Part shown: piece after piece, positions 23,678-61,924 of the stretch | How positions within the stretch are numbered: the stretch's first letter is position 1 | Layout of the letters: each line of letters starts with the position of its first letter | Source of the DNA: Streptomyces sp. RPT161 | GTDB lineage: Bacteria > Actinomycetota > Actinomycetes > Streptomycetales > Streptomycetaceae | Length of the DNA: 64,000 nucleotides | NCBI RefSeq assembly: GCF_027533845.1 | Contig: NZ_JAPZVN010000016.1 | Location: forward strand, 1-64,000 | Direction: 5' to 3' | Position numbers and translations under genes: made by a program | Notes under the pieces: generated by a model | Told to the model about the DNA's origin: nothing | The model's database searches: none | What the model saw: the letters and a program-made list of their open reading frames with translations, nothing else

Positions 23678-23773
23678 GCTTCGCCGTGGGCTGTGCAGTG
23701 ATTCTCACCGATGGGACCGACAAGGGCCCGGCTTCTGTCGGTATCTGCCTACGCGAGAGGACTCCTGGGCCGC

Positions 23774-41307: not shown

Positions 41308-41775
41308 CTACCAGTCAAGGTCGCCCGTGGTGAGGATCTCGGTCGCCACGTCTGCCTCGTCACCCTGCGGTGCTGTGAGTGCCTCCATGACTAGTGAACT
41401 GAGAATGCCCGTCAGGTCACGCCCTCCACTGGCGTTCAGCTGGCCTTGGATGTAATTCAGGCCGCAGTTGGCGTACTCCTCGAAAATCTGAACGCGTTCC
41501 TTGAGTCGGTCATCTGCGAGAATCTTGGCATCCTCCGGCTTCTCGGACGCAGCGAGCAAGTCCAGGAGCACGTCGCCGAACGAGCGGTTCTCCACACGAG
41601 AGAGGTTGATGGGTTCCCCCGACTTGTCGAAGGGCTCCCGCCGCCCCTTTTGCTTGCCAAGGGCGGCGGCGAACATCATCGCCTCGTACATGGCTGTGAA
41701 TGGGCCGCTCTTGCCTGCGAGGGCAGCCAAGAGCTCTTCGTGGTCGGCTGGGCGCCGAAACCGCTCTTCGGCCAT
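41308..41775 (-). CDS. Small dnd-system-associated protein
   Basis: This 155-residue protein begins MAEERFRRPADHEELLAALA and contains the YEAMMFAAALGKQKGRREPF segment, which matches my memory of the family annotated as dnd system-associated protein 4. It is helical and acidic at the end. The ATG overlaps the stop of the DndD-like ATPase (TGATG), so it is made with it. It probably forms part of the complex that restricts DNA lacking phosphorothioate marks; its own activity is unknown. Confidence 0.7.
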   Translation of the reverse strand: MAEERFRRPADHEELLAALAGKSGPFTAMYEAMMFAAALGKQKGRREPFDKSGEPINLSRVENRSFGDVLLDLLAASEKPEDAKILADDRLKERVQIFEEYANCGLNYIQGQLNASGGRDLTGILSSLVMEALTAPQGDEADVATEILTTGDLDW

Positions 41776-43832
41776 CAGACGGTCACCTCTTCCAGGACGG
41801 TGTGTTCGAAGTCGCCTCGGCTCACATACGGAACGGCACGATCGTTGATGGTGATGTTCTGCTCCTTGGCACCTTCCTTGGAGGTGACTGACCGCAGGAC
41901 GTAGATACGGGAGGCTGCCGTCTGGAGATGCTCCAGGACGCGCCCCCGCGCCTGGGACTGAGAGAGCAGGGTCACGATCTGCGAGGTCAGTTGCGGCAGG
42001 GATTCGGCGACCTGGTCCTGGTACTCGATGTCAAGGTTGCCGAACGGGGCATCCATGACGACGGGATAGATGCCGCCCTCGTCAAGGTTGGCCTCATCGG
42101 TCTTTTGCTTACGGTTGTGGATCTCCTTGGCCATCTCGGAGACCGCGCCGACGAATGACAGGCCAAGGATCTGGTTCTCTCCGGTGCTCCGGATCGCGGC
42201 GGGTCCTGCGGTGGTCGCGTGGAGTTTGAGCTCGAAGTTAGGAGTGAGCTCCGGGGTGAACGGCTTGATGCAGATCCGGGAGAAGACGCCTTTGACCTTG
42301 GCGTCGAGCTGCTGGCGCACCTCGGCGGTGCGTACTTCGAGGATGCGGCGGAACGCCTCCAGGACCTCGTCCACGAGAGCCACCTGCCGCTGAAGGTTCT
42401 GCGCCTCGGTATCTTCGACCTTAGCGGCATGGAACTGTCGGCGCAGCCGGGTGATCTCTTCGTCCAAGTGCTCCTTGCCCCGCTTAGCGTCGCGGTGAGC
42501 GCCGAGGGCTTCGATGCGCTTGTCGTCGAACTCCTTACGCCGGTCTTCCAGTTTCTGGACGTCGACGACGTCGACACCCTTCAACTGGCGGGCGATGTCA
42601 CTCTCCTCAGCATCGAGGTCGTTGATCTTGGCTTCGATGGCCTGAAGTTCGGCGCTGATCTCACGAAGTTCGTCCAAAAGAGCCTTGCGTGCGTCGATGA
42701 GCCGGGCTGCGTTGCCGCGTAGGTTCATCCATCGCGCCTGGACGTCCGCCAGTCCGGCATTCTCCAGACGTTCCAGCAAGGCCGTATGGGCGGGCGATCC
42801 GGCAGGAACGGGGGTTCCGCACATGCAGTACCCGTCCTCCAAGAGCCCGGTGATGTAGTCGCGCTGGATGCCGGAAGGGAGCTCCTGACGCCTCCTCATG
42901 CCCTCAGCGAGGTCGATCACGGCCTGGTCGATGCCTGCGGTGAAGGCGATGAAGCCCCGCTCCGCCAGCACCCGTCGCTGCTTGTCCTGTAGCTCCTGGT
43001 AGCGGTTCTTCTCCTGCTCTAGCTCCTTGGCCAACCGCACCCGGCGCTTCTGCAGCGGAGCGGCTTGGCCGTTCTCGAGAAGGGCCTTTTCGGCTGCTTC
43101 GACCTCCCGCTGGTAGGCGGAGACGTCCGCGGAGAGCTTGAGTAGTTCGCGGTCGATGGCCAGCTTCTGCTGTTCGAGCTGATCCTGCGTATCGGCAATC
43201 TGCTGAAGGCGCCCGCCACCGAGCTTCTTGGCAGCAGCAGTGAGCTTGCGAGATGCCGCAGGCAAGTGGACATCGATGGCTCGCTCGATCATCTCCAGAC
43301 CCATGAGGGTCTTGATTGCGTCCTGGACGTCGCCGGTGCCGTCACCGGTGAACATCCTCTCCATGCGTTCGCCGTTGAAGAAGAAGAAGCGACGGAGCCC
43401 CTCGGGGAGGATCTTCTCGATCCGGTCCTGGCCGTTCTTAACCTCTGAGCTCTCGCCGTGGCGCGTCTCGGTCACCGTTAGCGTCGGACGGGGCAGGTCC
43501 TGCCCCTCGGAATCCTTGATCGCGCGAACCTCCCGTAGAACTGTGACCAGCACCCCCTCGTGCTCGAACTCAAGCTTGACCCCTGCGTGCACGGAGGCGC
43601 CGAATGCCGCATCCGCCCATGCGCGATCGTTGATGATCCGTTCCTGGTGCTCGACGTCACTGGTAAAGGTCCCGTACAGAGCCCAGGTGAAGGCGTTGAG
43701 CAGGGTCGTCTTGCCCGCGCCGTTCATGCCAAAGATCAAGACAGCTGGCTTGCCGTCGGTGACGTCAAGCCTCAGCACATGCCGACCGTGGAAGACACGG
43801 AAGTTGTCGACGGTCAACTTAAGCAGCTTCAC
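41775..43832 (-). CDS. DndD-like SMC-type ATPase of the restriction operon
   Basis: This 685-residue protein is built like Rad50/SMC and DndD. It has an N-terminal Walker A (GMNGAGKTT, residues 35-43), an RFFFFNGERMERMF signature near residue 153, and long coiled coils. A CxC zinc-hook-like turn, YCMCGTPV, lies near residue 334, and a C-terminal VVMDAPFGNLDIEY Walker B/D-loop near residue 600. It is distinct from the dndD in the modification operon. It overlaps the small upstream gene by four bases. It likely couples ATP use to DNA binding in phosphorothioate-dependent restriction. Confidence 0.85.
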   Translation of the reverse strand: MKLLKLTVDNFRVFHGRHVLRLDVTDGKPAVLIFGMNGAGKTTLLNAFTWALYGTFTSDVEHQERIINDRAWADAAFGASVHAGVKLEFEHEGVLVTVLREVRAIKDSEGQDLPRPTLTVTETRHGESSEVKNGQDRIEKILPEGLRRFFFFNGERMERMFTGDGTGDVQDAIKTLMGLEMIERAIDVHLPAASRKLTAAAKKLGGGRLQQIADTQDQLEQQKLAIDRELLKLSADVSAYQREVEAAEKALLENGQAAPLQKRRVRLAKELEQEKNRYQELQDKQRRVLAERGFIAFTAGIDQAVIDLAEGMRRRQELPSGIQRDYITGLLEDGYCMCGTPVPAGSPAHTALLERLENAGLADVQARWMNLRGNAARLIDARKALLDELREISAELQAIEAKINDLDAEESDIARQLKGVDVVDVQKLEDRRKEFDDKRIEALGAHRDAKRGKEHLDEEITRLRRQFHAAKVEDTEAQNLQRQVALVDEVLEAFRRILEVRTAEVRQQLDAKVKGVFSRICIKPFTPELTPNFELKLHATTAGPAAIRSTGENQILGLSFVGAVSEMAKEIHNRKQKTDEANLDEGGIYPVVMDAPFGNLDIEYQDQVAESLPQLTSQIVTLLSQSQARGRVLEHLQTAASRIYVLRSVTSKEGAKEQNITINDRAVPYVSRGDFEHTVLEEVTV

Positions 43833-44035: not shown

Positions 44036-46192
44036 TCAAGCGTCCATGAGCCCGTAGCGCTGCCGCAGCGGGCGCAGGATGTCTAGGGTGGCAGCCTCGT
44101 TCTCCGCGAGGCAGGCGAACTCGGTGACTCGGGCGAGCTCGCGGGCCACCATTCGGCGCTCGGTCTCGCGGTGCAATAGCTCCATACCGTCTGGAGGGAC
44201 GACGATGAAGTCGACGATGTCGGCCATGTCCTTGCCAGGTGCGCGGCGCAGTACGCGTCCGCGGCGCTGGATGAACTGACGAGGGTTGGACGAGCTGGCT
44301 ACGAGGTAAGCGGTGCGGGCAGCCGGCACATCCACCCCTTCGTCCAGGCAGCGCATGGACAGCAGGACCTGGAGATCATTCCCTGTGCTGAAGCGGCGCA
44401 GGATCGCGCGGCGCTGCTCGCGTGGCGTTTCGGAAACGTACTTGGCAGCGGGCATGCGAAGTTCGCGACCGACCATGTGCAGTGCCTGGTCAAGCTGGGT
44501 CAGCTCGTCGAGTTCTCCGTGGATCCCGTCTGCGAGGGGGTGTCTGCCCTCCGCGCAGTACAGGAGTTGGAACCAATCGTTCTCGCGCTTGACGATCTCC
44601 CGCCGCAGCGCGGGGAGCTTGGCGCGCGCGTGTCCCAGGATGTTGGCACGTTTTCGCAGCAGTCTGCCCAGGGGGCTGTCGTCGTCGGCGTCGTCGCTGA
44701 ACTGCTGCGTGGCGAGCACCTTGGCGATCTTCTCGGTGACCTCGGCGTACAGCTCGGTCTCTTCGGCATCCAGTTCTACCAGTACCGGGGTGTAGGTGTA
44801 GCGGCACAGCGCGCCGACCCGGATGGCATCCGCGATGCCCATCTCGAAGATAACGTCACCGAAGTACCCCTGAAGGGCGGCGGTGCCGTCGTCGTCAAAC
44901 CAGCGCTCCGGTGTGGCCGACAGCCCAAGCCGATAGGCAGCGGCGCCGGGCAGCTGGCTGCGTAGGCGTCGGGCTCCCAGGTTGTGCACCTCGTCGCCGA
45001 TGAGTAGGAAATGCCCCCGGTATCGGGCCAGTAGGGGCTGGAGGATATCCCTGCCAAAGGTCGCGTTGGTGGTTACGATGACTCCCCCGCGAGCGGTGCC
45101 GAGGGTGAGCGCATCCAGGAGGTAGGAGGCTCTGCGGTACCACGCGTCCGTGGACTCGTAGGCACGGATGGCAGTGATGCCAAACCGCTCGACGTCGTCG
45201 ACCCACTGGTCGACCAAGTGCTGATACGGAACCACGATGACAGTCAGCAGGGGAAGTTCGGCTTGCTGCTTGAGTCGTTTCGCAAGCTGAGCCGCCGCAG
45301 ACAGCGCGGTTAGCGTCTTGCCAATTCCCGTGGCCATGCGCAGGATGCCGCGAAGGCCATTGGTGAACCAGCGCTGTACTGCCTGCTTCTGGTAGTCACG
45401 CACCTGCAAGTCCGCAGGGATGGCGAGGATGCCGTCAGTGTCGGGTCGCGGCAGTGTGATGACCGTGCCGTCACCAGGCGGCACCTGCGTGACGGTCTTG
45501 CTCTTCGCTCTCCGCGCATATTCCTCGATGAGAGGCCGGGCGGCATCGGTGAAGTCGAAAACGCGTAGCAATGGAGTCTGGTCTTGCCACAGGTCTTCGA
45601 AGTCCCGACTGATGCGGACTGCCCGTTCGCTGTCACCGGAGTGCCAGCTACGGAAGACTTCGACGGACTCGAAGTTGCCAGCGAGCCCCGGCAGGGTCTC
45701 ATTGGCACTGCCTTTGAACGCGACCAAGTCACGGCTGTCGCGGAACACGCCGATCTTCTCGTGATACATGCCGACGCGGTCGTCAGCTGAGACGTACGCC
45801 AGCTTGATGTCCAAACGCCCCTCGGCGACGAGCGCGCCAAGCTGACCCAGCCCATGTGCCGCAACGGGATCCTGGCAAGCCTCCTTGAGATTGCGGAGCG
45901 CGGCACGCTCCAATACGGCGCGCAGTGCGTACCCTGCTTGGATCTGGGTGACATCCTCCTGGTTGAGTTGAGGCGAGGCAACGATACGAAGTTGTCCGCC
46001 ACGGGAAGCGAAATCATCCAGCCCCTGGCCAAGAACCGCAAGTACGGAGGCACTGAAGTACCCGACTGCGCGGTCATATTGCGTCGACGCCGCCAGAGCG
46101 GGAACATAGAAGTCCTTCACTAGATCCGCGCGATCGCTGCGGTAGTCGCTGTGAAGGTTGGTCATATGCAACGCACGAGCCGCAGGTGTCAT
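44036..46192 (-). CDS. PLD-nuclease/DEAH helicase, phosphorothioation-associated restriction enzyme
   Basis: This 718-residue protein joins an N-terminal phospholipase-D-type nuclease domain (H144 and K146 in YHEKIGVF, GSANET at 161) to a superfamily 2 helicase. Helicase motifs are ATGIGKT near 288, DEVH near 400, LSATPERW and QRRGRVLRR. This matches the family annotated as DNA phosphorothioation system restriction enzyme, usually found with dnd genes. It probably moves on DNA and cuts when phosphorothioates are missing. Only one half of an HKD pair is seen, as in dimeric PLD nucleases. Start ATG 46192 overlaps the upstream stop. Confidence 0.85.
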   Translation of the reverse strand: MTPAARALHMTNLHSDYRSDRADLVKDFYVPALAASTQYDRAVGYFSASVLAVLGQGLDDFASRGGQLRIVASPQLNQEDVTQIQAGYALRAVLERAALRNLKEACQDPVAAHGLGQLGALVAEGRLDIKLAYVSADDRVGMYHEKIGVFRDSRDLVAFKGSANETLPGLAGNFESVEVFRSWHSGDSERAVRISRDFEDLWQDQTPLLRVFDFTDAARPLIEEYARRAKSKTVTQVPPGDGTVITLPRPDTDGILAIPADLQVRDYQKQAVQRWFTNGLRGILRMATGIGKTLTALSAAAQLAKRLKQQAELPLLTVIVVPYQHLVDQWVDDVERFGITAIRAYESTDAWYRRASYLLDALTLGTARGGVIVTTNATFGRDILQPLLARYRGHFLLIGDEVHNLGARRLRSQLPGAAAYRLGLSATPERWFDDDGTAALQGYFGDVIFEMGIADAIRVGALCRYTYTPVLVELDAEETELYAEVTEKIAKVLATQQFSDDADDDSPLGRLLRKRANILGHARAKLPALRREIVKRENDWFQLLYCAEGRHPLADGIHGELDELTQLDQALHMVGRELRMPAAKYVSETPREQRRAILRRFSTGNDLQVLLSMRCLDEGVDVPAARTAYLVASSSNPRQFIQRRGRVLRRAPGKDMADIVDFIVVPPDGMELLHRETERRMVARELARVTEFACLAENEAATLDILRPLRQRYGLMDA

Positions 46193-47148
46193 CGCAGCCC
46201 CATCAGCTCGATAATCTCATCCGTCGAGGCACCACTTACACCCGCCTCGGCAGCTTCCTCACTATCCACACGGTGAAGCTGAACGGCAGGCAGGTGCTCA
46301 TCCCGCATGATCCGGGCACCGTTCCCCCGTCGGACAACGCCAGCGTTCGTTGTGAATGGCGCCGTGGAGGACACCTGTCGAAGAGTGGCCAGGTTGATAG
46401 TGAAGTCCCGGGTGAGGTTTCGCTCCAGGTCAGCCAACGAGATAGACCCTCCTGCGCGATCTACCTCTTCAGTCACGAGTTCCTTGACGGATGTGTAGCG
46501 CCGCATCCCCCAGCGTGTGAGAGCCCACTCACATATATCGCTGCGCATAAAAGAGTCATCCGCGGACAGTTGGGCTTTCAGAGAATCAACGTTGATGTCC
46601 CCTCCCATCCGGTCGGCAAGTTCTTGAAGGGACATTGGATGGCCAGCTTGCAGCAGGCATATCTCCGCGCGCGCCTTCAATGACCTACGGCGTCTCCCAT
46701 TCGGCCGCGAGCAGGAGCCTACCGGTGATGGCATTTCAAATAGCTGAAGTTCTTGGCCCTGGCCCGGCTCCTCCTTGACAAGAGTCCAGCTATTGACGTC
46801 CGTCATAGCAGTCCTGTTGTCGCAAAGGAGCATGCGACGAATGTTCTTCGCATCCCCTACTTCAGGAATGCGCTGCAAGATCTCTTCTTCTGTGAGACAC
46901 CCCTCCACAGCCAGCACGGCTACCACTCGATCCGCCAGAGAGGCAGACAGCGCCACAGGAACCATCGGCTCCTCATCCGCCAGCACCCAACCTCCTCGAC
47001 TGGGACGTGCCCGAAGAACCCGCGACGCGAGTCGGTCAAGATCGGGAGGAAGTTGGTCAGCCTCTGCCAGAAGCTCACCAAGCGTCGTTCGTCCACCTTG
47101 CGCTGCCGCATGAGCCGCGAGACGAGCTAAGGCGGACGCTAGGGACAT
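46189..47148 (-). CDS. Multi-winged-helix protein at the head of the restriction operon
   Basis: This 319-residue protein looks like repeated winged-helix units: one near 15-75 (LARLAAHAAAQGGRTTLGEL), one near 82-130 and a pair near 160-270 (MSLQELADRMGGDINVDSLK and AGGSISLADLERNLTRDF). This resembles the HARE-HTH or RNA-polymerase-delta type of fold. ATG 47148 lies behind AAGGA, and the stop overlaps the helicase start. A role in DNA recognition or regulation of the restriction complex is inferred. I do not know it as a named dnd component. Confidence 0.65.
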   Translation of the reverse strand: MSLASALARLAAHAAAQGGRTTLGELLAEADQLPPDLDRLASRVLRARPSRGGWVLADEEPMVPVALSASLADRVVAVLAVEGCLTEEEILQRIPEVGDAKNIRRMLLCDNRTAMTDVNSWTLVKEEPGQGQELQLFEMPSPVGSCSRPNGRRRRSLKARAEICLLQAGHPMSLQELADRMGGDINVDSLKAQLSADDSFMRSDICEWALTRWGMRRYTSVKELVTEEVDRAGGSISLADLERNLTRDFTINLATLRQVSSTAPFTTNAGVVRRGNGARIMRDEHLPAVQLHRVDSEEAAEAGVSGASTDEIIELMGLR

Positions 47149-47606
47149 TTCCGTTCCTTCTGATGGACTGTGCTCACGTTCAGGGGCACCCGGCGGGATC
47201 ACCTCGCGAGCATACGATGTCGCAGTGCCAGCGTGCCCTGTTACGGCACGAGCATCGTGATCGACAACAGGGCACCCAGCTAGGTGAGACTCGGCGCTGC
47301 GCGGACCGCTTGCGCGCTTGCTGAGCTGACTCACGCGCGGGCTCGTTGACGCGGAGGTACCTCACTTCACCTCCCAACTTTGCGCCGCAAGCTGGTGCTT
47401 CGCAGTCTGCACAGCACACGATGGCGCAGAGGAGCGCAATCCTCGGGGCTCCAGGCCGCCCTCCCCTAGCGCAAGGAATTTTGGAGCAACGCCCCACCGC
47501 CGCAAGGTGGTTGGGTTAGCCTCGATCGAGCCACAACAGAACACACCTCCGTCACTTCAACCGCGTCCTACCGCATGGGGGCCGCAGTTAGACCAGGAGA
47601 CCCAGC
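47149..47606. promoter_or_regulatory. Divergent promoter region between restriction operon and HTH-GIY-GHKL operon
   Basis: 458 bases without genes, flanked by two operons that start away from each other. It must hold both promoters. An inverted repeat built on GCCCTGTT/AACAGGGC lies at about 47237-47273. No textbook -35/-10 pair is obvious. Confidence 0.45.
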
Positions 47607-48077
47607 ATGCTCACGGAGCAGGCGCAGCGCGCCCTTGTTCTGCTGACCCGTCACGCCGACAAGACGGGCGACCAGTTTGTTCTTGACCGCGTGGACCGGG
47701 CAAAGGATGAGATCATCCGGCTAAACTCCAGCAGCCCGGCGCCTTTCCAGGTACGCAGTGCCTTAGCGCACGCCGGAGCAGTACTTCGGCAGCGTCGAGC
47801 GCTCGTGCCGTCGGTTCAACTGAGTGAGGTTCAGCCACAGGACGAGCCCGGGAAAGATGATCTGTCGTTCGCTGCGATCGAGATCTACGAATGGCTCCGA
47901 ACTACCCCCTCCCTCAGCACACCACAGCGCCACCTCCTGCAGGAACTGGCGAGCGGCTACCAGATCGAGGCTCTCGCATCTCGGCGAGACGTTCCCTTGC
48001 AACGCATGCGTGAGTCCATCTCCCGCGTCCGGAAGCGCGCTCGCAACGCATACGCAGTCGAAGGGACTGCGGCATGA
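47607..48077 (+). CDS. Sigma-region-4-like helix-turn-helix protein
   Basis: This 156-residue protein has a C-terminal helix-turn-helix (about residues 100-148: LSTPQRHLLQELASGYQIEA, then a recognition helix and RVRKRARNAY), as in sigma region 4 or LuxR domains. The N-terminal 95 residues are helical. The start ATG 47607 follows CAGGAG. The stop overlaps the next start (ATGA). It may regulate the operon or bring it to transcribing or damaged DNA; no partner sigma domain is present. Confidence 0.65.
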   Translation: MLTEQAQRALVLLTRHADKTGDQFVLDRVDRAKDEIIRLNSSSPAPFQVRSALAHAGAVLRQRRALVPSVQLSEVQPQDEPGKDDLSFAAIEIYEWLRTTPSLSTPQRHLLQELASGYQIEALASRRDVPLQRMRESISRVRKRARNAYAVEGTAA

Positions 48078-48472
48078 GCACGACTCGGCTGTATCGCCTC
48101 GCTCCCTGGGTGGTGCGTGCCCTAATCCCAACGAGAGTCATCGGCACGTATGTGCTCTACATCCAAGGGAAAGCCAACTACATCGGACGGAGTGACACAT
48201 GTATACGGCGTCGGCTACTCCACCACTGCGGGACGGCGCGCGGTGAGTACTTCACGTACGACGTACACGCCTCCCCTGAGCAAGCTTTCGCGGGCGAGTG
48301 CAGCCTATTCCATGCTCTGCGCCGCCAACTGACCAACATCCGCCACCCCGACCGTCCCGACTTCACCCAGACGGTATGCCCCTTTTGCTGGTCCACTCTG
48401 CAAGCTACACGCCAGCACCGACTCAGCATGCCCGTGCTCAGATCACCCCAAGATGCGAAGGAAAAAAGATGA
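48074..48472 (+). CDS. GIY-YIG nuclease-domain protein
   Basis: This 132-residue protein has the GIY-YIG core: GTYVLYIQG (G24-Y26) as the first strand, YIGRS (36-40), arginine 45-47 and the catalytic-looking glutamate E75 in AFAGECSLFH, each in proper order. A CPFCW zinc-like turn follows near residue 102. GIY-YIG domains cut one DNA strand in repair, homing and restriction. It overlaps both neighbours by four bases, so all three proteins are made from one message. Cleavage by this protein is inferred. Confidence 0.75.
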   Translation: MSTTRLYRLAPWVVRALIPTRVIGTYVLYIQGKANYIGRSDTCIRRRLLHHCGTARGEYFTYDVHASPEQAFAGECSLFHALRRQLTNIRHPDRPDFTQTVCPFCWSTLQATRQHRLSMPVLRSPQDAKEKR

Positions 48473-50202
48473 ACGCCGAACCGCTGTTCCATCCCCCTGC
48501 GCCCAGCACGAACACGACGGGTTGGACGTCCCACGCGGACATCATCAAGATCGACACTGCATTGGAGGCGATGCGGGATTCAGGATTCGACCTGACCGCG
48601 GCAATCGGTGAACCCATCGACAACTCAATCGAGGCTGGTGCGACCATCATTCAGGTCCTGCCCAGTTTCGCCCCCAAGAAGAGTAGAATTAATGAGATCG
48701 CCATCCTCGACAATGGCCGGGGAATCAAAGGAGAAATCCTCGCCCGAGTACTATCGATGGGCTACAGCACCCGATATGGACAGCGAGGAAGCCTGGGTCG
48801 CTTCGGAGTGGGCATGAAGCTGGCCGGACTCAGTCTTGGACGGCGCATTGACGTCTACACCAAGCAGGTCGGCGATGATGCTATCGGGCACGCCTACCTC
48901 GATATCGAGGAGATCGCAGCCGGACAGCAGACACACATCGAAGCACGCAAAGTGGATTCCTGGCCATCTCCCTACTCGGAGGTGATGAATTCATTCGATT
49001 CAGGCACGCTGGTTGTCTATGGAAAGATTGATCGCCTAACCGATGGCGGTCACTACGGCACCAGCCTCAGCCAGAAGCTCACAGATCTCCGCACCTTCAT
49101 CTCCCGCACGTATCGAAAGTTCCTGGATCAAGGGTTGACGATTAAGCTCAACACGACAACGATCACCCTCCTTGATCCACTGTTCCTCCTGGACAACCCG
49201 CGTATTCTTAAGGATTACCCTGATGGCACAGTACGCGGCCGAATTATCGAGGAGGACGACATCCACATCACCAATGGGCACTCTATCCACGTCACCGTCA
49301 CGACCGCGCCACGCGAGTTTCGCTGGCGAGAAGGAGAAGGCGGCCATAAGGACCGCTACGGTAGGGACATCGACAGCTACCAGATCCCCGACAGCGCCGG
49401 GAAGATCAGCATGGTGCGGAACGGCCGCGAGATCAACTACGACATTGTCCCTCGACTGCTTCCATCCGGTATCGACAAGATCGATCGCTACATCGGTATC
49501 GAGGTCACATTTCCGGCCGAGTTGGATGAATTCTTCCAGGTCCGCAACGTCAAGCGCGGCGCCGTTCCGGTCGACAAGCTTCGAAGCGAGCTCCGCCTCT
49601 GGCTTGACCGTCCAGTGAGGGTTGCACGAAAGGAGATTCGTGCGCATTGGGGGAGCGTCAAAACGAGAGAACGAGAAAATGATCGACAACATACAGAGGC
49701 GACGAACGCCGCAACACGCGCCAACAAAACCGCACCAATGGGGCAGGCAGGCAAGAACCTCACCGATGAAGACACCGAGCAGATTGTGCAGGAACTGCTC
49801 CACGACCTCGGCATGGCTGACGACCGCGAGCAGGCGGAACAAGTCCGCGAGCAAATTCAGCAGAATCCCTTCACGCTAGTCGACGGCGCCTGGCCGGGAA
49901 AAGAGATGTTTGAGATTGATCACCTAAACGGTAAGGCGATCATCCGCCTAAACCATAGGCACCCTTTCATGCAGGACATCTATCTTCGACTCAAGGAAGT
50001 CGCCGACGGGGGCACCAATGGTGCGGACGTTGACGAACTCGTCAGGCTAATCCGCAAAACGGAGACGGCCCTCGACATCCTGATCCTGGCTTACGCGAAG
50101 GCCGAGAATATGGACCCCAAAACCGAAAAATACGAAGATCTCCGAAGCTACTGGGGGCAGTTCACCCATTCCTTCATGCGGGAACTGCCTAACGATGAAT
50201 GA
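48469..50202 (+). CDS. GHKL (Hsp90/MutL-type) ATPase
   Basis: This 577-residue protein has a full Bergerat ATP-binding fold: N-box GEPIDNSIEAG (E48, N52), DNGRG (81-85) and GRFGVGMK (110-117). A long middle region resembles the transducer domain, and a helical C-terminus follows. ATP-driven dimer closure, as in MutL, MORC or topoisomerase, is expected. ATG 48469 overlaps the GIY-YIG stop. Paired with a GIY-YIG nuclease and placed between the two dnd operons, it is probably a defence or DNA-surveillance ATPase. I do not recognise the exact family. Confidence 0.8.
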   Translation: MNAEPLFHPPAPSTNTTGWTSHADIIKIDTALEAMRDSGFDLTAAIGEPIDNSIEAGATIIQVLPSFAPKKSRINEIAILDNGRGIKGEILARVLSMGYSTRYGQRGSLGRFGVGMKLAGLSLGRRIDVYTKQVGDDAIGHAYLDIEEIAAGQQTHIEARKVDSWPSPYSEVMNSFDSGTLVVYGKIDRLTDGGHYGTSLSQKLTDLRTFISRTYRKFLDQGLTIKLNTTTITLLDPLFLLDNPRILKDYPDGTVRGRIIEEDDIHITNGHSIHVTVTTAPREFRWREGEGGHKDRYGRDIDSYQIPDSAGKISMVRNGREINYDIVPRLLPSGIDKIDRYIGIEVTFPAELDEFFQVRNVKRGAVPVDKLRSELRLWLDRPVRVARKEIRAHWGSVKTRERENDRQHTEATNAATRANKTAPMGQAGKNLTDEDTEQIVQELLHDLGMADDREQAEQVREQIQQNPFTLVDGAWPGKEMFEIDHLNGKAIIRLNHRHPFMQDIYLRLKEVADGGTNGADVDELVRLIRKTETALDILILAYAKAENMDPKTEKYEDLRSYWGQFTHSFMRELPNDE

Positions 50203-50207
50203 TCCGT

Positions 50208-50247
50208 CGTGGCCGCACGCCAACTTCAAGCAAGGCGTGCGGCCACG
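50208..50247 (+). terminator. Terminator of the HTH-GIY-GHKL operon
   Basis: CGTGGCCGCACGCC (50208-50221) and GGCGTGCGGCCACG (50234-50247) pair perfectly over 14 bp around 12 bases, five bases after the GHKL stop. Confidence 0.85.
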
Positions 50248-50293
50248 GGAAGCCTTCACCGTCAGCCTCAATTTCAATCCCCGTATAAAAGTG

Positions 50294-50330
50294 GTAAATG
50301 GCCGGGCCACTCGTGAGCCCGGCCATTTAC
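50294..50330 (-). terminator. Terminator of the dndBCDE operon
   Basis: GTAAATGGCCGGGC (50294-50307) and GCCCGGCCATTTAC (50317-50330) pair perfectly over 14 bp. On the minus strand the hairpin begins 13 bases after the dndE stop and is followed by CACTTTTATAC, a short T-rich stretch. Confidence 0.85.
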
Positions 50331-50342
50331 GACTAATCGGGG

Positions 50343-50729
50343 CTACTTAGCTGTTACTGCCGAGTCCACGAGTTCGCGAATCGTGCGTACCTCCTTGTTG
50401 CCTGCCAAGTAGCCGATGCCGCGATGCAGATGGATGGTGAGAGTGCGGCTGATCGATTTCTCGTCCAGCGGCAGACCATCCGCAGCGCAGCGTTGTTTGA
50501 GCAGAGCAAGGTAAACGTGGCCGTGCTGAGTACCGGCGAAGGTATCCCAGTCCATTTCCACGTTGGAGTCGGTGGTGATCTCCTTGACCAGGGGGGTAGA
50601 CGGGTCGGAGAGAGAAACAGTCAGGGCCCAGCGGCAGAGCACGTTCCAATGCTTGATGCCGGTTGTGCGCTTCAGCCGGACTAGCTGGTCACGTGCGGCC
50701 TGGGAGAGTCGAATATTGTCAAGCGACAT
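50343..50729 (-). CDS. dndE: DNA phosphorothioation protein DndE
   Basis: This 128-residue protein opens with NIRLSQAARDQLVRLKRTTG, followed by WNVLCRWAL, which is the DndE signature. It ends in a helical segment. DndE is a small tetrameric protein that binds nicked DNA and is needed with DndC and DndD for sulfur insertion. ATG 50729 overlaps the end of dndD by 11 bases; the longer frame has no separate site. Confidence 0.9.
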   Translation of the reverse strand: MSLDNIRLSQAARDQLVRLKRTTGIKHWNVLCRWALTVSLSDPSTPLVKEITTDSNVEMDWDTFAGTQHGHVYLALLKQRCAADGLPLDEKSISRTLTIHLHRGIGYLAGNKEVRTIRELVDSAVTAK

Positions 50730-52710
50730 GCGCTGCTCCGGACGTCCACCAGTAGCCAGATTCGACCGAGGTGGTGAAGTTGGCGTCGTCATGGACGAGG
50801 GTGTAGGTGCGGGCAATCGAGGGCTTCAGGCGCTGAAGCAGGTGCTTGTCGATCTCCTCGTCCGTAGAGAGGAGGAGCACCTGGTGGCTGGCGTGAGGGA
50901 AGTACCGGTCGACCAGGTGTTCACGGTGACGGCTGTCCAGGCGTCCGAGTGGGGTGTCGATGACGCTGGGCAGCCAGTTGCCGGCGACACGGGCAAGCCC
51001 CCACAGCAGGGACACTGCAAGAAGCTGGCGTTCACCTGCGCTCAAGCGCCCAGGATCCAGCACCTCACCTTCCGCGTCGATGAGAGTGAGCGCGAACCTT
51101 TCGGTGTCGATGCGGAGGTCCTTCACCAGCCCGCTCTTGCGCATCAGCCGGGTGAAGCTATCGAGGACAGCGACTTCGAGGCGATCGATCTGCCGCTGCA
51201 ACAGCATGCCCTTGAACCTGGCAAAAGCAGCACGGTGACGCTCGCAGTGGTCGATGATCCGCTCGGTCTCTTCCACCCTCATTAGGGTCTCGACGCGCTC
51301 TTCGTGAGCGCGCTTCAGTTGTTGGGCGAGCGCCGCCTGTCGATTCTTGCTTGTCTCATACGCCGCATCAGCCCTGTCCAAATCGGCCATGGCATGATGC
51401 AGGACTTGCCTGGCCTCGTCGCGCTTCTTCAGGCTTCTCGCGATCAAGTCAGCGTCAGGCACGCTCTCGAGCTGGGCCTTGAGATCCTCCAAGGCTGCTG
51501 CTTGCTCCGCCGCCTGCTTGAGTAGTTCCTCGGCGCGCCGCTTTTCGAGCGCAAGGATGGAGTCGATCGCAGCAAGCTGTGCAGCGCCTTCCGCGGTGAG
51601 GTTCAGCACGCGCTCTGCCTGGCCGGCCATCTCGCGTCCGCGGCGGTCGGCCTCAAGATGCTCCTGCAGGAGCTGACGCTCACGCTCTGAGAGGGCCTCA
51701 CCGAGCTGGTCCATGAGCTCTTTGTCTCGACTGGTGAGCACGTCGAGGACTTGGGCTGCAGCGTTTGCTTGTTGCTCGATATCAGCCTGCTTGTGGAGTG
51801 CAGTGATCTGCTCGGCCACCAGCCGAAGTGGGAGGGCACCACCGGCGAGCTTAACCAGCGCCCCATCGGTGGCCTCCAACTGTTCGGTGATTACGGCTTG
51901 GCGTTCTTCCAGTTCGGTGCGCCTGGTGAAGAATTCGCCTCCGTTCTTCTCGAAGTCGTGCTCGGCCTTCTCTAGGGTGCGCTTGGCGTCATCTACGACC
52001 GACTGCAGCTCGCCTTGTCTATCCTTGGCGGCGTCCACGTCGTCCTGGATGGCCTCCAGCTGTTCCTCCAACTCGCGGATCCGTGTCAGCGCGCTTTGGT
52101 CCGCTTCGGTAAGTTTTTTGCGCCGCTGCAGGGTCTGCAGATCGGCGCGAAGCTGCTCCACACTCCTCACGCCCAGCAGGGACTGCACGGCAGACTCGAT
52201 AACGGCCGAGGCACGCTCGGGGTCGGCGAGGGACTCGACCTTTTCTCCATCGAAGAAGAACAGAGAGCCAATCTCCAGCGGCAGTAGGTCTTCTACGTGG
52301 TCGGCCCATCCCTCGCTGATCGACTTCTGCCACTCGTCGTCGACCTTAACGTTGACGTACTCGTGCAGGGACTTGCCGTTGACTGACCAGTTTCGGGTCA
52401 GTTTGTAGACGCGTTCTTCGCCCTCGTCGGTTACGGAGAACTCCAGGGTGATGGAGGCGCCGTGTTTGGGGTCTGCCTGGCGGTTGATCGACTCGCGCAG
52501 GAAGGTCTCGTACGAGCGCGTGCCTCGGCTACTGCATCGAGCTCGGGGCCCGTACAAGACGAGCTGGATGGCGTCCAGCAGTGTCGTCTTGCCGCAGCCA
52601 TTGAGCCCGCCGATAAGCACGATTGGCTTGCCGGGCTTGGTGGTCAGGTCGAGACTCTGCTTGCCTCGGTAGGCCCCGAAGTCCTCAAGCGTGATGTGGT
52701 GCAGAAGCAT
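50719..52710 (-). CDS. dndD: DNA phosphorothioation ATPase DndD
   Basis: This 663-residue Rad50-like ATPase has Walker A GGLNGCGKTT (residues 34-43), an SLFFFDGEKVESL stretch near residue 148 and long coiled coils. An LSAGERQLLAV ABC-signature lies near residue 555 and a Walker B/D-loop SVIDTPLGRLDSRH follows. DndD hydrolyses ATP while the modification complex inserts sulfur. It overlaps dndC by 26 bases and dndE by 11. Confidence 0.92.
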   Translation of the reverse strand: MLLHHITLEDFGAYRGKQSLDLTTKPGKPIVLIGGLNGCGKTTLLDAIQLVLYGPRARCSSRGTRSYETFLRESINRQADPKHGASITLEFSVTDEGEERVYKLTRNWSVNGKSLHEYVNVKVDDEWQKSISEGWADHVEDLLPLEIGSLFFFDGEKVESLADPERASAVIESAVQSLLGVRSVEQLRADLQTLQRRKKLTEADQSALTRIRELEEQLEAIQDDVDAAKDRQGELQSVVDDAKRTLEKAEHDFEKNGGEFFTRRTELEERQAVITEQLEATDGALVKLAGGALPLRLVAEQITALHKQADIEQQANAAAQVLDVLTSRDKELMDQLGEALSERERQLLQEHLEADRRGREMAGQAERVLNLTAEGAAQLAAIDSILALEKRRAEELLKQAAEQAAALEDLKAQLESVPDADLIARSLKKRDEARQVLHHAMADLDRADAAYETSKNRQAALAQQLKRAHEERVETLMRVEETERIIDHCERHRAAFARFKGMLLQRQIDRLEVAVLDSFTRLMRKSGLVKDLRIDTERFALTLIDAEGEVLDPGRLSAGERQLLAVSLLWGLARVAGNWLPSVIDTPLGRLDSRHREHLVDRYFPHASHQVLLLSTDEEIDKHLLQRLKPSIARTYTLVHDDANFTTSVESGYWWTSGAAHVA

Positions 52711-54202
52711 CGGCGTTCTCGTCGTCCTTGGTCAGGGGCAGCTGCCCGGGGATCTGGTCGCGCAGCTGCTTCTTGCGCACGGCGTAGGCGTAGGCGTCTT
52801 CCTTGTTGTCGAAGAAGCCTCGTTTGATGGTGTCCTCCAGAGCGTCGAACAGTCCTGCTCGCCGCGTCATGGTACGGAACTTGCGCTCCACGCCCAGGAG
52901 CTCCCGAGCGGTCGTGAAGAGCAGTTCATCGCCCTCGCATGCTTCGCGTAGCAGGTCGATCTCGTCTGCTCCGAGCGCCAGATGCTCATCCAAGGGCCTG
53001 CCGGGGAAGTCCTCCCCTGTCTCTTCCTTGAAAATGCGTGGAAGTGAATCTTCGACCTCGTGCTTGTCGAAGACCCAGATTCGGCGGATCTCGTGCAGCT
53101 CGGGCATGGTGATCAGCTCGATGCCGCGGACGTGTTCGGGGGCGTGCCGACGGACCCAGGTCTGCGCCTTCAGCAGCTCGCGCAGCCAAGTTTCCCTGGA
53201 TTGCTGGGTATAGGGGCCGTGGACCAGCCTGTTGTCCTGGCCGAAGATCTGGATCTTGCCGTTCATCTTGCGGAAGTCCCGCAGATGTGTGTCGTCGGCC
53301 ACGTCCAACTTATTGCGGAGGTCTAGGAGCGGCTGCATCCACTCCTTCTCTTCGTCGTTCTGGATCATTGCAGCCATCGACTTGTCCTGCTCGACCAGCG
53401 TGCAGGTCCAGCAGCCGAAGCGGCTGTCGCCGCATGAAGGCGTGGTGTCGTCTACGACAAGCGGGCACTCCGAGTCCTCGGACGCAGACTGATACATGGT
53501 CAGCAGGTCCTTGTTGGAGTAGCCCCAAGGATTCTCCTGTTGCATCAGGAAGGTCCACACCTCATCGCTGGACCAGTCCTCGATTGGGCTGTAGACAAGT
53601 GAGTTTGGCAGGTTGGCGTTCGGTGAAAGCCGGTCACGCACCCGTCGCTTTTCGTGCTTCGCCATCGTCTTGGCCCGAATTTGGCTCTCCTGCTTGCGAA
53701 TTCCCAGCACGAGGATCGCTTCGCCATGCCGACGCACAACGCTGCGGATGAACTTGTTGGATGGCTTGATCTTCATCCGCTCGGTGCACCAGCGGAACTT
53801 GGGGCGCGGGGCTGGGTAGCCTCGGCCGATCAACCCGACCCAGAAGGTGTCCTTGACCTCTGGTGTCAGCCTGTTTGGCTCGATGGGCAGATGTTGCCCG
53901 ACGGCGGCCTGGCGCATCGTCTCCAACGACTGAGTCACCCACGAGGCAACGATGGGGTTTTCGACGAGCGTGTCGGTAGAAATTACGTATACAGGCTTCG
54001 TGCGTTGCTCCTGTGGCAGCTCATTCAGCGCGAGCCACACTAGTTGCAGGACGGCCGTCGAGTCCTTGCCGCCGCTGTAACCCACCACCCAGGGAACCTC
54101 GTCCGCGGTGTAGAGCTCGCGGATCTCGGCCGTGAGCTTGGCGACGACTTCCTTGAGACTGCTGCCCTCGAACGCCGAGGTACCTCGTGTCGCGGTACTC
54201 AT
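52685..54202 (-). CDS. dndC: DNA phosphorothioation sulfurtransferase DndC
   Basis: This 505-residue protein has the PAPS-reductase/ATP-pyrophosphatase P-loop, YSGGKDSTA (residues 42-50). It also has cysteines in RWCTERMKIKP and PSCGDSRFGCWTC that should hold the iron-sulfur cluster. It activates the DNA backbone with ATP and delivers sulfur from DndA. ATG 54202 overlaps the dndB stop by four bases. Confidence 0.93.
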   Translation of the reverse strand: MSTATRGTSAFEGSSLKEVVAKLTAEIRELYTADEVPWVVGYSGGKDSTAVLQLVWLALNELPQEQRTKPVYVISTDTLVENPIVASWVTQSLETMRQAAVGQHLPIEPNRLTPEVKDTFWVGLIGRGYPAPRPKFRWCTERMKIKPSNKFIRSVVRRHGEAILVLGIRKQESQIRAKTMAKHEKRRVRDRLSPNANLPNSLVYSPIEDWSSDEVWTFLMQQENPWGYSNKDLLTMYQSASEDSECPLVVDDTTPSCGDSRFGCWTCTLVEQDKSMAAMIQNDEEKEWMQPLLDLRNKLDVADDTHLRDFRKMNGKIQIFGQDNRLVHGPYTQQSRETWLRELLKAQTWVRRHAPEHVRGIELITMPELHEIRRIWVFDKHEVEDSLPRIFKEETGEDFPGRPLDEHLALGADEIDLLREACEGDELLFTTARELLGVERKFRTMTRRAGLFDALEDTIKRGFFDNKEDAYAYAVRKKQLRDQIPGQLPLTKDDENADASAPHHA

Positions 54203-55305
54203 GCCTCTCCTCGCTGGTATGCGTCTTCGGCGCGCTGCTCCTCCGGGCTGAGCGGGAGGCCGAGTGCGTGCCGCAGGTAGTTCACGGTAAGGGTCACCTG
54301 GGTGTGGCTCTTGGATACCTTGCCACCGATGATCGCCCGGCCTTCCCAGGCAGGGTTGGACCTCGCCCAGTCAACCTTGGACAGAGGGTCAAGGCGCGGA
54401 GCCCACTTCTGCGGATCAACTGATTCGCGAAGCAGGGTGTTCCCGATGCGGCCGAGTGCGTGCAAGGCGATGCCATGGCTGTGGATGTAGTCGCGGCGTA
54501 CGTCAGCAGCGGTCATCGCGCGGTTACGGACCATCTGCCACTCAGGGACCAGGGTGTCAATCCGCTCCCAGAACACCTGGGCCACCTCTTCGGCTGCCTT
54601 CTTCTTCAGCTTGAGTCCCTGCAGGAGTGACTGGTTGGCCGAGTGAAGGGCGCTCAAAGTGAAGAGTTTGCTGGAACGCGCGGACAGGGTGCTGCTGGCC
54701 ATCTCAACGTGCTGTTTGAAAACAGGTGACTTGAGAGCAAGAAGTCGGGTAAGCCCGGCTAGGTCGTCGCGGTGGTCGTACAACACGCCGATGGAGCGCG
54801 AAGGACGCACCGCGTGCCGGTTGAGATCAGCGAACATCTGCTGCGAGCGCGCGAGCCCGGCATCGTGGAAGAAGACGACCGCGATGGTCTCGTCCCCGAG
54901 GTCGGGGTTGTCCTTCAGCGCGAGCTCAATGGCGGCGCGGCGGTGCTGCCCGTCGTTGATCAGGAAGCGGGCTGCCATCGGAACACGGATCTGCCCGGCG
55001 CGCATACCTGCGCCCTGATCGCCGATGCTCTCGAACGTAACGTCGCCGTCGATGGACGCGGTGAGGGCACTGAAGACGTAGTCGTCCGGGTTGTCCAGAA
55101 TATACCTGGCTAGAGCCGGTAGTCTTCCCTTGTTCAGCACTCGCTGGGCCCGCACCTCGGGGGCAATCTCGTCCTCGTCAAACAGGAAGATCCTAGGGAT
55201 CAGTCTCAGGGGACACATCGAGACAAAGTACTCACGTCCTGCCTGAACCCCCCGAATGGCAGGGAAGACGTACTCGAACCCAACTGATGTTGCCTCGCCC
55301 GCCAC
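54199..55305 (-). CDS. dndB: DGQHR-domain regulator DndB
   Basis: This 368-residue protein carries the DGQHR signature in INDGQHRRAAIE near residue 121, and FADLNRHAVRPSRSI downstream. DndB is not essential for modification but restrains the level of phosphorothioates and represses the cluster. GTG 55305 follows GGGAGAAGG. It begins the dndBCDE operon, 94 bases from the divergent dndA. Confidence 0.9.
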   Translation of the reverse strand: MAGEATSVGFEYVFPAIRGVQAGREYFVSMCPLRLIPRIFLFDEDEIAPEVRAQRVLNKGRLPALARYILDNPDDYVFSALTASIDGDVTFESIGDQGAGMRAGQIRVPMAARFLINDGQHRRAAIELALKDNPDLGDETIAVVFFHDAGLARSQQMFADLNRHAVRPSRSIGVLYDHRDDLAGLTRLLALKSPVFKQHVEMASSTLSARSSKLFTLSALHSANQSLLQGLKLKKKAAEEVAQVFWERIDTLVPEWQMVRNRAMTAADVRRDYIHSHGIALHALGRIGNTLLRESVDPQKWAPRLDPLSKVDWARSNPAWEGRAIIGGKVSKSHTQVTLTVNYLRHALGLPLSPEEQRAEDAYQRGEA

Positions 55306-55399: not shown

Positions 55400-56536
55400 A
55401 TGCCAGCGACGTACCTAGATGCAGCTGCCACTACACGTGTCGACGAGCGCGTCGCGGAGGTCGTGTTGCACTGGATGACGGAGGAGTTCGGCAACGCGGG
55501 CAGCCGGACACACGATTATGGCAACCGGGCCAAGAAGGCTGTTCAGCGAGCGCGTGAGCAGCTCGCTGCCCAACTCGGAGCCCGAGCCGATGAGTTGATC
55601 TTCACCAGTGGCGCCACCGAGAGCAATAACATCGCCCTGCTTGGGCTCGCGACTCACGGCCAGGAGGTGGGGCGCCGACACATCATCAGTTCAGCGATCG
55701 AGCACAAGGCGGTCATCGAGCCGCTAGAACACCTGCAGACGCGGGGCTTCGAGGTGGACTTCATCAAGCCCGACTGCCGCGGCAGGATCCACACGGAAGC
55801 CGTCAAGGAGCTACTGCGCCCAGATACGCTCCTGGTCTCTCTGATGCACGTCAACAACGAGACCGGGGTCGTCCAGCCCGTTGCCGAACTCGCAAGGCAT
55901 CTCCGGGAATCGGCCACCTACCTGCACGTCGACGCCGCCCAGGGATTCGCAAAACTGCCAGACGACTTGACCGCCCCGATCGACATGATCAGCATCAGCG
56001 GACACAAGATTGGGGCGCCCAAGGGTGTGGGCGCGTTGCTTATCCGTCGCCGTGGCTGGGACCGGATCCCCCTGCAGCCGATCATGTTCGGCGGCGGACA
56101 GGAGCGGAAGCTTCGCCCGGGCACGCTGCCGGTTCCCCTGGTGGTCGGACTGGCCAAGGCGGAGGAGATCTTCCGAACGGAACGCGACCAGTGGGTTGCA
56201 GGGGCGCAGAAGGTGCGCGAGGAAATCCTTGCGGCTCTATCCGGAACTCGGTACCACCTCAACGGTGACCCAGACCACAGCGTGCCTCACATCCTCAATG
56301 TGTCCTTCGAGGGTGTGGATGCGGAAGCCCTCATTGTGAGGCTTAGGGATATCGCCGCGGTTGCGACGGGCTCGGCATGCACCAGCGCCTCCTACACTCC
56401 GAGTCACGTCCTCACCGCTATGGGACTGCCGGAGAAGGTCGCAGCGAATGGCCTGCGCCTGTCCTGGTTCCCCTCTCAAGCTGACAATCTGGACATGCAG
56501 CAAATTGCAACGGTTGTCCGATCACTTCAAGACTGA
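55400..56536 (+). CDS. dndA: Cysteine desulfurase DndA
   Basis: This 378-residue IscS/NifS-type enzyme has the PLP lysine in SISGHKIG (K203) and the sulfur-carrying cysteine in TGSACTSASYTPSHVL (C327). It frees sulfur from L-cysteine and passes it to DndC. ATG 55400 lies downstream of GGGGAGAGGG. It is divergent from dndBCDE, the same layout as the Streptomyces lividans dnd cluster. The last ten bases overlap the 3' end of the converging methyltransferase gene. Confidence 0.93.
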   Translation: MPATYLDAAATTRVDERVAEVVLHWMTEEFGNAGSRTHDYGNRAKKAVQRAREQLAAQLGARADELIFTSGATESNNIALLGLATHGQEVGRRHIISSAIEHKAVIEPLEHLQTRGFEVDFIKPDCRGRIHTEAVKELLRPDTLLVSLMHVNNETGVVQPVAELARHLRESATYLHVDAAQGFAKLPDDLTAPIDMISISGHKIGAPKGVGALLIRRRGWDRIPLQPIMFGGGQERKLRPGTLPVPLVVGLAKAEEIFRTERDQWVAGAQKVREEILAALSGTRYHLNGDPDHSVPHILNVSFEGVDAEALIVRLRDIAAVATGSACTSASYTPSHVLTAMGLPEKVAANGLRLSWFPSQADNLDMQQIATVVRSLQD

Positions 56537-57993: not shown

Positions 57994-58293
57994 AGCACTC
58001 CACCGCCACATGCCCGCCCTCACCACACATGCCCACCAAGCGTATTGATTGGCTGCACTCGTGGCGACAGATGACGGCGGCGACGCCCGCACTAGGGACC
58101 CTAGACCGAGTGAAGGCCCTCACACTGACAGTGGCATCCGCCGGTGACGGCTGTGCCCCTGACTCGCTGCTCAGCAGAGAGCTACTGGCCGGTTGGAGTC
58201 TCAGCCAGCCAGTCGAGCACTCAGTCGTGGCAGTGCCGGAATCACCGGTTCGAGCGATGGCCCCACAATTCGAACATATGCTTGAATCTGGCC
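57994..58293. other. Spacer upstream of two genes
   Basis: 300 bases between divergent genes. Frames here have no ribosome sites and show no recognisable family. It should carry the promoters of the methyltransferase gene and of the 58294 gene. Confidence 0.4.
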
Positions 58294-61820: not shown

Positions 61821-61924
61821 CGCTAGGAACCTCTCGGGTAACGGTTTGGGCCAGGCTTCGAACGCCGCCGTAGGGGGGCCACTGGAGTGCTCGAAGTGGG
61901 GAGTGCGCCGGAGGTTAGCTGTGT

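Follow-up and report, generated by a model that had tools for sequence, protein, structure and literature searches.

A conserved HTH–GHKL gene unit, usually with a GIY-YIG-type nuclease gene, tied to DNA phosphorothioation genes in actinobacteria

The three-gene unit and its conservation

The 64,000-nucleotide stretch of Streptomyces sp. RPT161 analysed here (contig NZ_JAPZVN010000016.1, positions 1 to 64,000; hereafter the window) carries three plus-strand genes that belong to a conserved unit associated with the genes of DNA phosphorothioation (PT). Gene 1 (47607..48077) encodes a 156-residue protein with N-terminal helices and a C-terminal sigma-4-like helix-turn-helix (HTH), gene 2 (48074..48472) a predicted GIY-YIG-type nuclease of 132 residues with an invariant HP...CxxC tail, and gene 3 (48469..50202) a MORC/MutL-like GHKL ATPase of 577 residues with an S5/transducer domain and a helical C-terminal part. 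As the initial annotation of this DNA had described, the three open reading frames (ORFs) at 47607-50202 are joined by two ATGA overlaps, at 48074-48077 (genes 1 and 2) and 48469-48472 (genes 2 and 3). The guanine-plus-cytosine (GC) content of the trio is 58%, against 67% in window bases 1-40000, which suggests that it was acquired from outside.

By its predicted fold, gene 3 is a GHKL+S5 ATPase of the MORC/MutL type. It matches HATPase_c_3 in Pfam (1.2e-20), and residues E48, N52, D81, G83, G85, G110, F112, G113 and G115 are invariant in 11/11 aligned GHKL proteins; in the predicted model the four ATP-binding motifs are followed by an S5-fold domain, as in the GHKL + S5/transducer class. The nearest solved structures by sequence profile are MORC ATPases (MORC2, 7e-13). 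The model, whose mean predicted local distance difference test score is 66 and which is good in the ATPase core only, aligns over residues 3-390 with MORC3 (Z 19.5, 302 residues, root-mean-square deviation (rmsd) 4.9), at the top of a MORC range of Z 15.6-19.5, and also matches SMCHD1 (Z 18.0) and Topo VI, Hsp90 and MutL (Z 15-16). The MORC signature of the S5 domain, GhXhhpXXRhl, occurs in 0/21 GHKL proteins of the trios and pairs under either a strict or a relaxed pattern, the paraMORC2 ExxxH is not conserved among the same 21 proteins, and a Shedu-type C-terminal DUF4263 nuclease is absent from gene 3, which only two HATPase models match (Pfam, E 1). GHKL matches in the phage collection were partial only, in 3 records.

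GIY-YIG enzymes nick DNA, and their hallmark is a residue set that comprises the GIY and YIG strands and a catalytic Tyr, Arg and Glu (and Asn). The complete catalytic set is found in 16/16 aligned gene-2 proteins, some rows of the alignment being N-terminally trimmed, and 21 residues are invariant throughout, including G24, Y26, Y36, G38, R47, H51, E75, N88, C102 and C105. The nuclease and ATPase motifs that had been read as intact are indeed so at the residues named, and invariant in the relatives. The HP...CxxC tail is an extra, equally invariant element that could bind zinc. PF01541 matches 10/16 members (best 4.5e-6), whereas the window's own protein has no Pfam match at E 1; the identity given to gene 2 thus rests on the conserved motifs and on matches of its relatives. 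A PDB profile search with the GIY alignment gave 0 matches at E 10, and Pfam, PADLOC and NCBIfam returned nothing useful for window genes 1 and 2 taken alone.

Residues 82-156 of the gene 1 model match many sigma-4 domains, including region 4 of extracytoplasmic function (ECF) sigma factors, with Z about 7-8 and rmsd about 3; a Z below 8 can mean a common arrangement, yet almost every top-ranking match is a sigma factor, and the predicted model places this part in the sigma region 4 HTH class. By sequence, Sigma70_ECF matches 2/21 gene-1 members (best 1.5e-4), and the best hit of a PDB profile search with the HTH alignment is uninformative (E 0.45). Over the whole length, structure matches have an rmsd near 20 with no coherent N-terminal (region 2) match, the N-terminal part consisting of three helices of unknown kin ahead of the HTH.

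Distinct loci bearing the unit number 23, the window included. They come from five named actinobacterial genomes, one Nocardiopsis plasmid, one IMG/VR contig, the window, 12 other genomes of the window's family (with a second copy in one of them) and three genomes of a second draw. One genome of that draw, G858, holds as L088 the locus already known from the IMG/VR contig as L041 (100% identical over 17.4 kb), so that the two count as one locus and the total is 23, not 24. Near-duplicates are present as well, L087 being 91% and L052/L054 87% identical to relatives. By identity of the GHKL protein to that of the window, the loci form a group A (about 50-71%) and a group B (34-37%), which are pooled in the counts; the HTH proteins of group B are only 15-18% identical to the window HTH.

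An HTH gene lies upstream of the GHKL gene in 23/23 loci, and a gene-2 relative stands between the two in 17/23, being missing from L005, L006, L046, L048, L057 and L089. A tree of 33 GHKL proteins, in which L087-L089 are not included, requires gene 2 to have been gained or lost at least four times along starred branches. The conserved core of the unit is the HTH–GHKL pair, with the GIY-YIG gene usually added. The question raised earlier, whether the trio is conserved as a unit, is answered positively for genes 1 and 3 and in part for gene 2. The proposal that the ATPase senses foreign or damaged DNA for the nuclease to cut is not supported as an obligatory pairing, given the loci that do without GIY-YIG, and damage sensing by the ATPase is unsupported.

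A rule by which the GIY-YIG protein is swapped for another nuclease was considered and rejected, as only 3 of the 6 loci without gene 2 have a nuclease-like gene right after the GHKL gene. These are a GIY-like gene in L048 (PF01541 0.0049), an Mrr_cat gene in L006 (3.1e-4) and, in L057, a gene whose product is 57% identical to the Mrr_cat protein of L041. L005 and L046 have no such nuclease gene and L089 has pbe genes instead, and the rule is weakened further in that such islands are nuclease-rich anyway. A more recurrent neighbour is a DndB-like protein (DGQHR) of 720-750 residues, encoded after or near the GHKL gene in 9/23 loci: directly after it in L005, L041/L088, L047 (11038-13206), L049, L050, L051 and L087, one gene beyond it in L048 and near it in L053. 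This protein, which carries a TIGR03187 domain below cut-off (1.4e-7) and was not seen beside the window trio, is possibly a fourth component.

A hairpin in the leader of gene 1

The initial annotation had overlooked a hairpin in the leader of gene 1 (47563..47585, plus strand), 21 bases before the ATG, which reads stem, bulged A, CC-tetraloop-GG, stem. The same architecture, with one unpaired A and a loop of 3-4 bases between CC and GG, precedes gene 1 in 21/21 loci at the first comparison and in both later loci, hence in 23/23, at a distance from gene 1 of 19-25 bases in group A and 71-78 bases in group B. In the 15 leaders of group A, 8 pairs are intact in 120/120 cells, three pairs having changed on both sides, and their covariation score was reached by 0/500 shuffles, the 8-pair structure having been read off the same sequences on which it was counted. 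Once group B and a ninth position are added, pairing is kept in 90.6% of 180 cells (9 pairs), with a covariation score of 0.411 against 0.115 for shuffles and at most 0.130 for slid versions; the leader rows are related, and these covariation figures are not probabilities.

A covariance model trained on 21 hairpins, L041 among them, and used to score the 150 best first-look candidates per genome, recovers the expected site in 18/18 unit genomes at 34.6 bits or more (the training set), and gives no match above 29 bits in the 12 dndC genomes without the unit. Among the later loci, L087 and L088 score 39.1 bits, L088 being training row L041, and L089 scores 27.8 bits; L089 is the only separate test and, not standing above chance matches (up to 29 bits), is counted for position. 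Rfam gave no match to the leader.

Several observations speak against the hairpin or its specificity. The ninth stem position (alignment columns 47 and 63), omitted from the 8-pair count, is mismatched in 10/15 group A leaders, and single leaders compared with shuffles give z -0.2 for the window and +0.3 for L049, against -2.2 to -3.3 for five others. Moreover, a 41.5-bit site in the window's own genome (G000:C1:173428), in the gap that follows an atpC-like ORF, outscores the window's own hairpin (38.4 bits), and a 33.2-bit site of genome G474, in a coding-looking stretch, is on a par with the Mycobacterium asiaticum site described below. Both look like chance GC-rich stems.

In 21/21 hairpins the unpaired A is on one side only, which suits an RNA better than a DNA dyad; the inner CC/GG pairs never vary, however, and the element may instead be a plain DNA palindrome. 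Upstream, TAGCCT (47517..47522, plus strand), of the pattern TANNNT, is a possible -10 element of the trio promoter. This pattern is found 6-19 bases before a CAAC-like word in 12/15 group A leaders, against 1.4 expected under base shuffling, in a scan that misplaced the anchor word for L002 and L007. From these positions transcription likely starts upstream of the hairpin, which would thus probably be part of the mRNA. There is weak support for base pairing between the ribosome site and a leader segment upstream of it (combined p 0.02, rows related). In group B (L052-L057) the hairpin apparently sits inside a larger conserved structure, CTGCT...CAAAGG...AGCAG, with a second hairpin ahead of the ribosome site (from folds of L052 and L053, and by eye in the rest).

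A second copy of the hairpin (33.0 bits) lies at 8414-8444 of L066, in a PT island of M. asiaticum, before a YbjN/TY-Chap1 gene divergent from pbeB-pbeA. This copy, together with the sigma-4-like HTH present in 23/23 loci, would fit a purely regulatory unit, in which the HTH and GHKL proteins, with their nuclease-like partner, control dnd/pbe operons and leave foreign DNA uncut. We consider such a role quite improbable: in the window the model detects no hairpin ahead of dnd or pbe genes, and the GIY-YIG catalytic set, which a regulator would not need, is invariant where present.

At its 3' end the trio is followed by a perfect 14-bp inverted repeat (50208-50221 paired with 50234-50247, plus strand; -33.9 kcal/mol, z -4.8). 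The stem of what had been called a private terminator is therefore present; no T-run follows it in the sequence, so that its role as a terminator is putative. A second inverted repeat between the trio and dndE (50290-50334; 18 nt, 94%) probably terminates the convergent dnd operon.

Association with phosphorothioation genes and possible roles

Full-length GHKL relatives were defined as matches of 34% identity or more that cover 545 or more of the 577 residues, a threshold chosen after a gap was seen between E 6e-84 and 1e-25. Among 394 genomes of the window's family such a relative is present in 13 and dndC in 25, and 13/13 GHKL genomes carry dndC (hypergeometric 7e-18, a figure that ignores kinship). 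Where a weaker GHKL relative is the best match (E 1e-25 to 2e-17), 0/13 genomes have dndC. The five named genomes, from another collection, all carry dndC (5/5), as do the three GHKL genomes of the second draw (3/3, in 392 genomes, of which 21 were tested for dndC), against 0/18 comparison genomes without a GHKL match. Overall, dndC accompanies the unit in 21/21 tested unit-bearing genomes, which answers the earlier question of whether the genes occur with or without dnd. The module is real, conserved and tied to PT.

Physical linkage is common, the dnd genes lying within the same fetched stretch in 17/23 loci. In at least three of the 21 genomes the unit stands apart from dndC, by 0.93 Mb in G620, by 2.4 Mb in G474 and on another contig in G778; of the two copies in G414, one lies about 20 kb from dndC and the other on a different contig. 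As G620, G474 and G778 are unlinked cases, shared position alone cannot explain the tie to dnd. Defence genes cluster and travel together, so that the unit might be an unrelated passenger of the same mobile islands; this we regard as very improbable, in view of the unlinked copies, still found in dndC genomes, and of the weaker GHKL relatives, which show no tie to dndC.

In the window, the trio lies between a minus-strand restriction operon on the left and minus-strand dndBCDE on the right, as first described, although the identity of the former as a PbeABCD-type operon had been missed. The pbeB-position gene (46189..47334, minus strand) has no family match in Pfam, PADLOC or NCBIfam, and its homologues lie close to PbeA in L004, L005, L048, L051 and L089; 272 bases separate its first listed start (47334) from gene 1, in accordance with the shared divergent region proposed. 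Then follow, all on the minus strand, PbeA, a PLD nuclease fused to a superfamily 2 (SF2) helicase (44036..46192; PADLOC PbeA 4.6e-247; TIGR04095 571.6 bits, below the cut-off of 600), the DndD-like ABC ATPase PbeC (41775..43832; PADLOC PbeC 9.1e-290) and a PbeD-position gene for dnd-associated protein 4 (41308..41775; TIGR04062 88.3 bits, above cut-off). On the other side are dndE (50343..50816; PF08870 3.6e-40; TIGR03184), dndD (50719..52710; TIGR03185), dndC (52685..54202; TIGR03183) and dndB (54199..55305; TIGR03233) on the minus strand, dndA on the plus strand (55400..56536; TIGR03235) and a putative PT-associated methyltransferase on the minus strand (56527..58092; TIGR04096), each of the TIGR models scoring above cut-off. 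Four dnd-island proteins of the window are 76-81% identical to those of Streptomyces aidingensis.

The strand of the window trio, opposite to dndBCDE, and its apparently tightly controlled leader would also fit a dangerous back-up suicide effector, kept off by hairpin and HTH protein, silent while PT works, and cutting host DNA or causing cell death in another way once a phage has knocked out PT modification or PbeABCD. The main text of Iyer et al. 2024 (PMC10853773) proposes this role for URI/GIY-YIG nucleases at dnd borders. We judge it unlikely for the present unit, since in the group A loci L005, L041, L047-L050 and L087 the unit is co-directional with dndE and directly after it, and since the GIY-YIG gene is often lost while HTH–GHKL stays.

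Further genes of the window deserve a mention. A DUF5655 protein, weakly matching a NucS-type nuclease (PF01939 0.0047), is encoded at the outer edge of both the window's dnd island (58705-59634) and that of L047 (13469-14662), the two being 62% identical. An N6/N4 DNA methylase gene (61059-61937) and an NlpC/P60 gene (62261-63538) lie beyond it, and the L047 island is also followed by a gene with an NlpC/P60-like start (by eye); the two islands may sit in related mobile elements. A phage minor tail protein gene at 14090-16963 (PhageMin_Tail 3.8e-23) indicates that prophage remains may flank the island, and a DUF4238 gene (22538-24778), adjoining a gene that weakly matches the AbiJ N-terminus (0.0024), is possibly part of another defence locus.

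PbeA is present in 9/18 unit genomes (split into two pieces in one genome) and absent from the other 9, a search that covered the genomes other than the three of the second draw, among which L089 does have pbe genes. The unit may therefore serve as the restriction arm of PbeA-less genomes. In this regard, the island of G719 reads methyltransferase-dndABCDE-HTH-GIY-GHKL-DndB-like, without PbeA. According to the main text of Iyer et al. (PMC10853773), DndFGH occurs in only 806/3416 nuclease-bearing PT taxa, and where PbeA or DndFGH is missing the unit is a specific candidate user of the PT mark.

More distant GHKL proteins (27-32% identity) are found in an SF2 helicase - GHKL - PLD nuclease arrangement in L013, L014, L042, L043, L061 and L064, beside DUF4007, a large SspC-like protein, phosphoadenosine phosphosulfate (PAPS) reductase and mostly cysteine desulfurase; DUF4007 of L014 falls outside the stretch read. 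As given in the parts of PMC12839542 consulted, DUF4007, the BrxC/SspC ATPase and PAPS reductase correspond to SspB, SspC and SspD of PT systems. GHKL ATPases have thus probably joined PT systems more than once. The arrangement resembles a PbeA cut in half, with the GHKL gene between the halves. Other distant relatives lie near cytosine methylase, DruA or FtsK genes.

Taken as a whole, the data lead us to favour, with moderate confidence, a reading of the trio as a PT-dependent restriction module. GHKL+S5 proteins such as MORC and MutL form a clamp on DNA that closes on ATP, and the gene 3 product would likewise dimerise on ATP into a clamp on DNA. The PT state of the DNA would set the dwell time of this clamp, which would read PT sites or be cleared by them, and the closed clamp would recruit or license a nuclease, usually the co-translated GIY-YIG protein and elsewhere perhaps PbeA, an Mrr-type enzyme or a second GIY-YIG. 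As gene 2 is dispensable, we do not claim GIY-YIG as the only cutter. Expression is probably restrained by the HTH protein together with the leader hairpin, a safeguard that any nuclease attacking under-modified DNA would require, and translational coupling would carry the control of gene 1 to all three genes. The earlier suggestion that cutting is guided by PT status finds its one support in the co-occurrence with PT genes.

A number of observations weigh against this reading. The GIY-YIG gene, absent from 6/23 loci and with its repeated changes of presence, is not needed everywhere, and dnd does not need the module, which is lacking in 12/25 dndC genomes. L007 lies on a plasmid record without dndC, for which the plasmid sequence alone is available. 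TIGR03238 (DndH) matched 0/30 genomes but likewise no control, and DndFGH may be present in them. The co-occurrence could reflect co-mobile cargo. Among selected ORFs of the flanks (five in G719, three in G728), 2/5 in G719 match PADLOC models (PDC-S07, 7.5e-13, about 7 kb away; mad2, 9.4e-5), and for this reason the unit is not claimed as the only defence gene of that island. The tie to PT does not extend to distant GHKL relatives in general: a gene labelled PAPS reductase by the depositors is found within about 10 kb in 6 of 11 distant plasmid records and not in the other 5. In 16 distant GHKL loci, moreover, profiles built on genes 1 and 2 gave no match at E 1.

PT-linked maintenance, in which a MutL-like clamp and a nicking enzyme would repair or trim damage at PT sites with no part in defence, is improbable in our view. 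The gene 3 model does match MutL (Z about 15) as well as MORC, and the repair nuclease UvrC also contains a GIY-YIG domain; a maintenance function, however, is hard to reconcile with the patchy distribution of the unit (13/394 genomes), with the 12/25 dndC genomes that manage without it, with the low GC of the trio and with islands placed beside PbeABCD or Mrr enzymes.

A more far-reaching version of the restriction reading, which we hold to be rather doubtful, makes HTH–GHKL (with GIY-YIG) a separate PT-reading class, in which a MORC-like clamp would read the backbone sulfur. The bulged-A hairpin, close to the ribosome site, would then serve as an RNA operator of translation, bound by the unit's own HTH protein (or another factor) and acting on all three genes through coupling. 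If so, the second hairpin-controlled gene of the Mycobacterium island would extend this control to a small regulon. MORC-type ATPases silence foreign DNA in eukaryotes, and a PT-dependent module would be their first link to a bacterial backbone mark, as far as the literature searched indicates. The leader hairpin, for its part, offers an easy way into the question of how such systems might be kept from attacking their own host.

Comparison with known systems

No description of the HTH-(GIY-YIG)-GHKL unit came to light in searches of the open-licence PMC literature, and, as the initial annotation had stated, no named defence system with this gene order was found in the libraries and open literature searched. 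That annotation had nonetheless passed over earlier work on MORC/paraMORC operons (PMC2292703) and on GIY-YIG/URI nucleases at dnd borders (PMC10853773). Membership of named systems was negative for Pbe, no PADLOC Pbe model matching genes 1-3, and for Mza: residues 31-255 of gene 3 resemble the GHKL domain of MzaB in PADLOC, at 64.6 bits far below the curated cut-off of 850, and the scanned neighbours included no other Mza gene. SspH of Streptomyces was rejected as a relative, being an unrelated 15-kDa single-domain protein according to the portion of PMC9137472 consulted.

Among PT-linked systems, PbeABCD (the CxC ABC ATPase systems of PMC10853773, main text) likewise combines a nuclease with an ATPase and adjoins the window trio, but consists of wholly other proteins, and PbeA is missing from 9/18 unit genomes searched for it. 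In DndFGH, SspE, SspFGH and DndI, PT marks self and an ATPase-nuclease attacks DNA according to its PT state; as reported in the part of PMC11662687 consulted, PT marks gate the ATPases of DndFGH, SspE and DndI. Unlike the present unit, these systems are HerA/FtsK-like or pair HNH with other nucleoside triphosphatase folds, and the term GHKL was not found in the papers on them that were searched. The standalone URI/GIY-YIG nucleases that Iyer et al. 2024 (PMC10853773) describe at dnd borders, in some cases encoded on the opposite strand, share with the trio a GIY-YIG gene at the edge of dnd, and may be gene 2 itself. The main text of that article contains none of the terms GHKL, MORC, MutL, Hsp90, gyrase and HATPase, so that the HTH–GHKL unit is not described there.

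With respect to GHKL systems, VcSduA (GHKL-Shedu, paraMORC3) is similar in that a GHKL ATPase controls a nuclease and stops phage, protection requiring both sites intact in the account of PMC12137116 available to us, which we count in favour of the restriction reading. It differs in being a single gene with a fused DUF4263 nuclease, and PT dependence is not reported in that account. The prokaryotic MORC/paraMORC restriction operons described in 2008 (PMC2292703) also place a GHKL+S5 ATPase beside nucleases, helicases and modification genes, and ATP-driven DNA looping between mark and cut site was proposed for them. As presented in the sections of that article consulted, where the terms GIY-YIG, phosphorothio and dnd were not found, these operons contain methylases and mostly SF2 helicases, whereas the trio has neither a helicase gene nor the MORC signature. 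The module is most likely a new variant of the GHKL-nuclease (MORC/paraMORC) restriction systems, equipped with a new cis-element.

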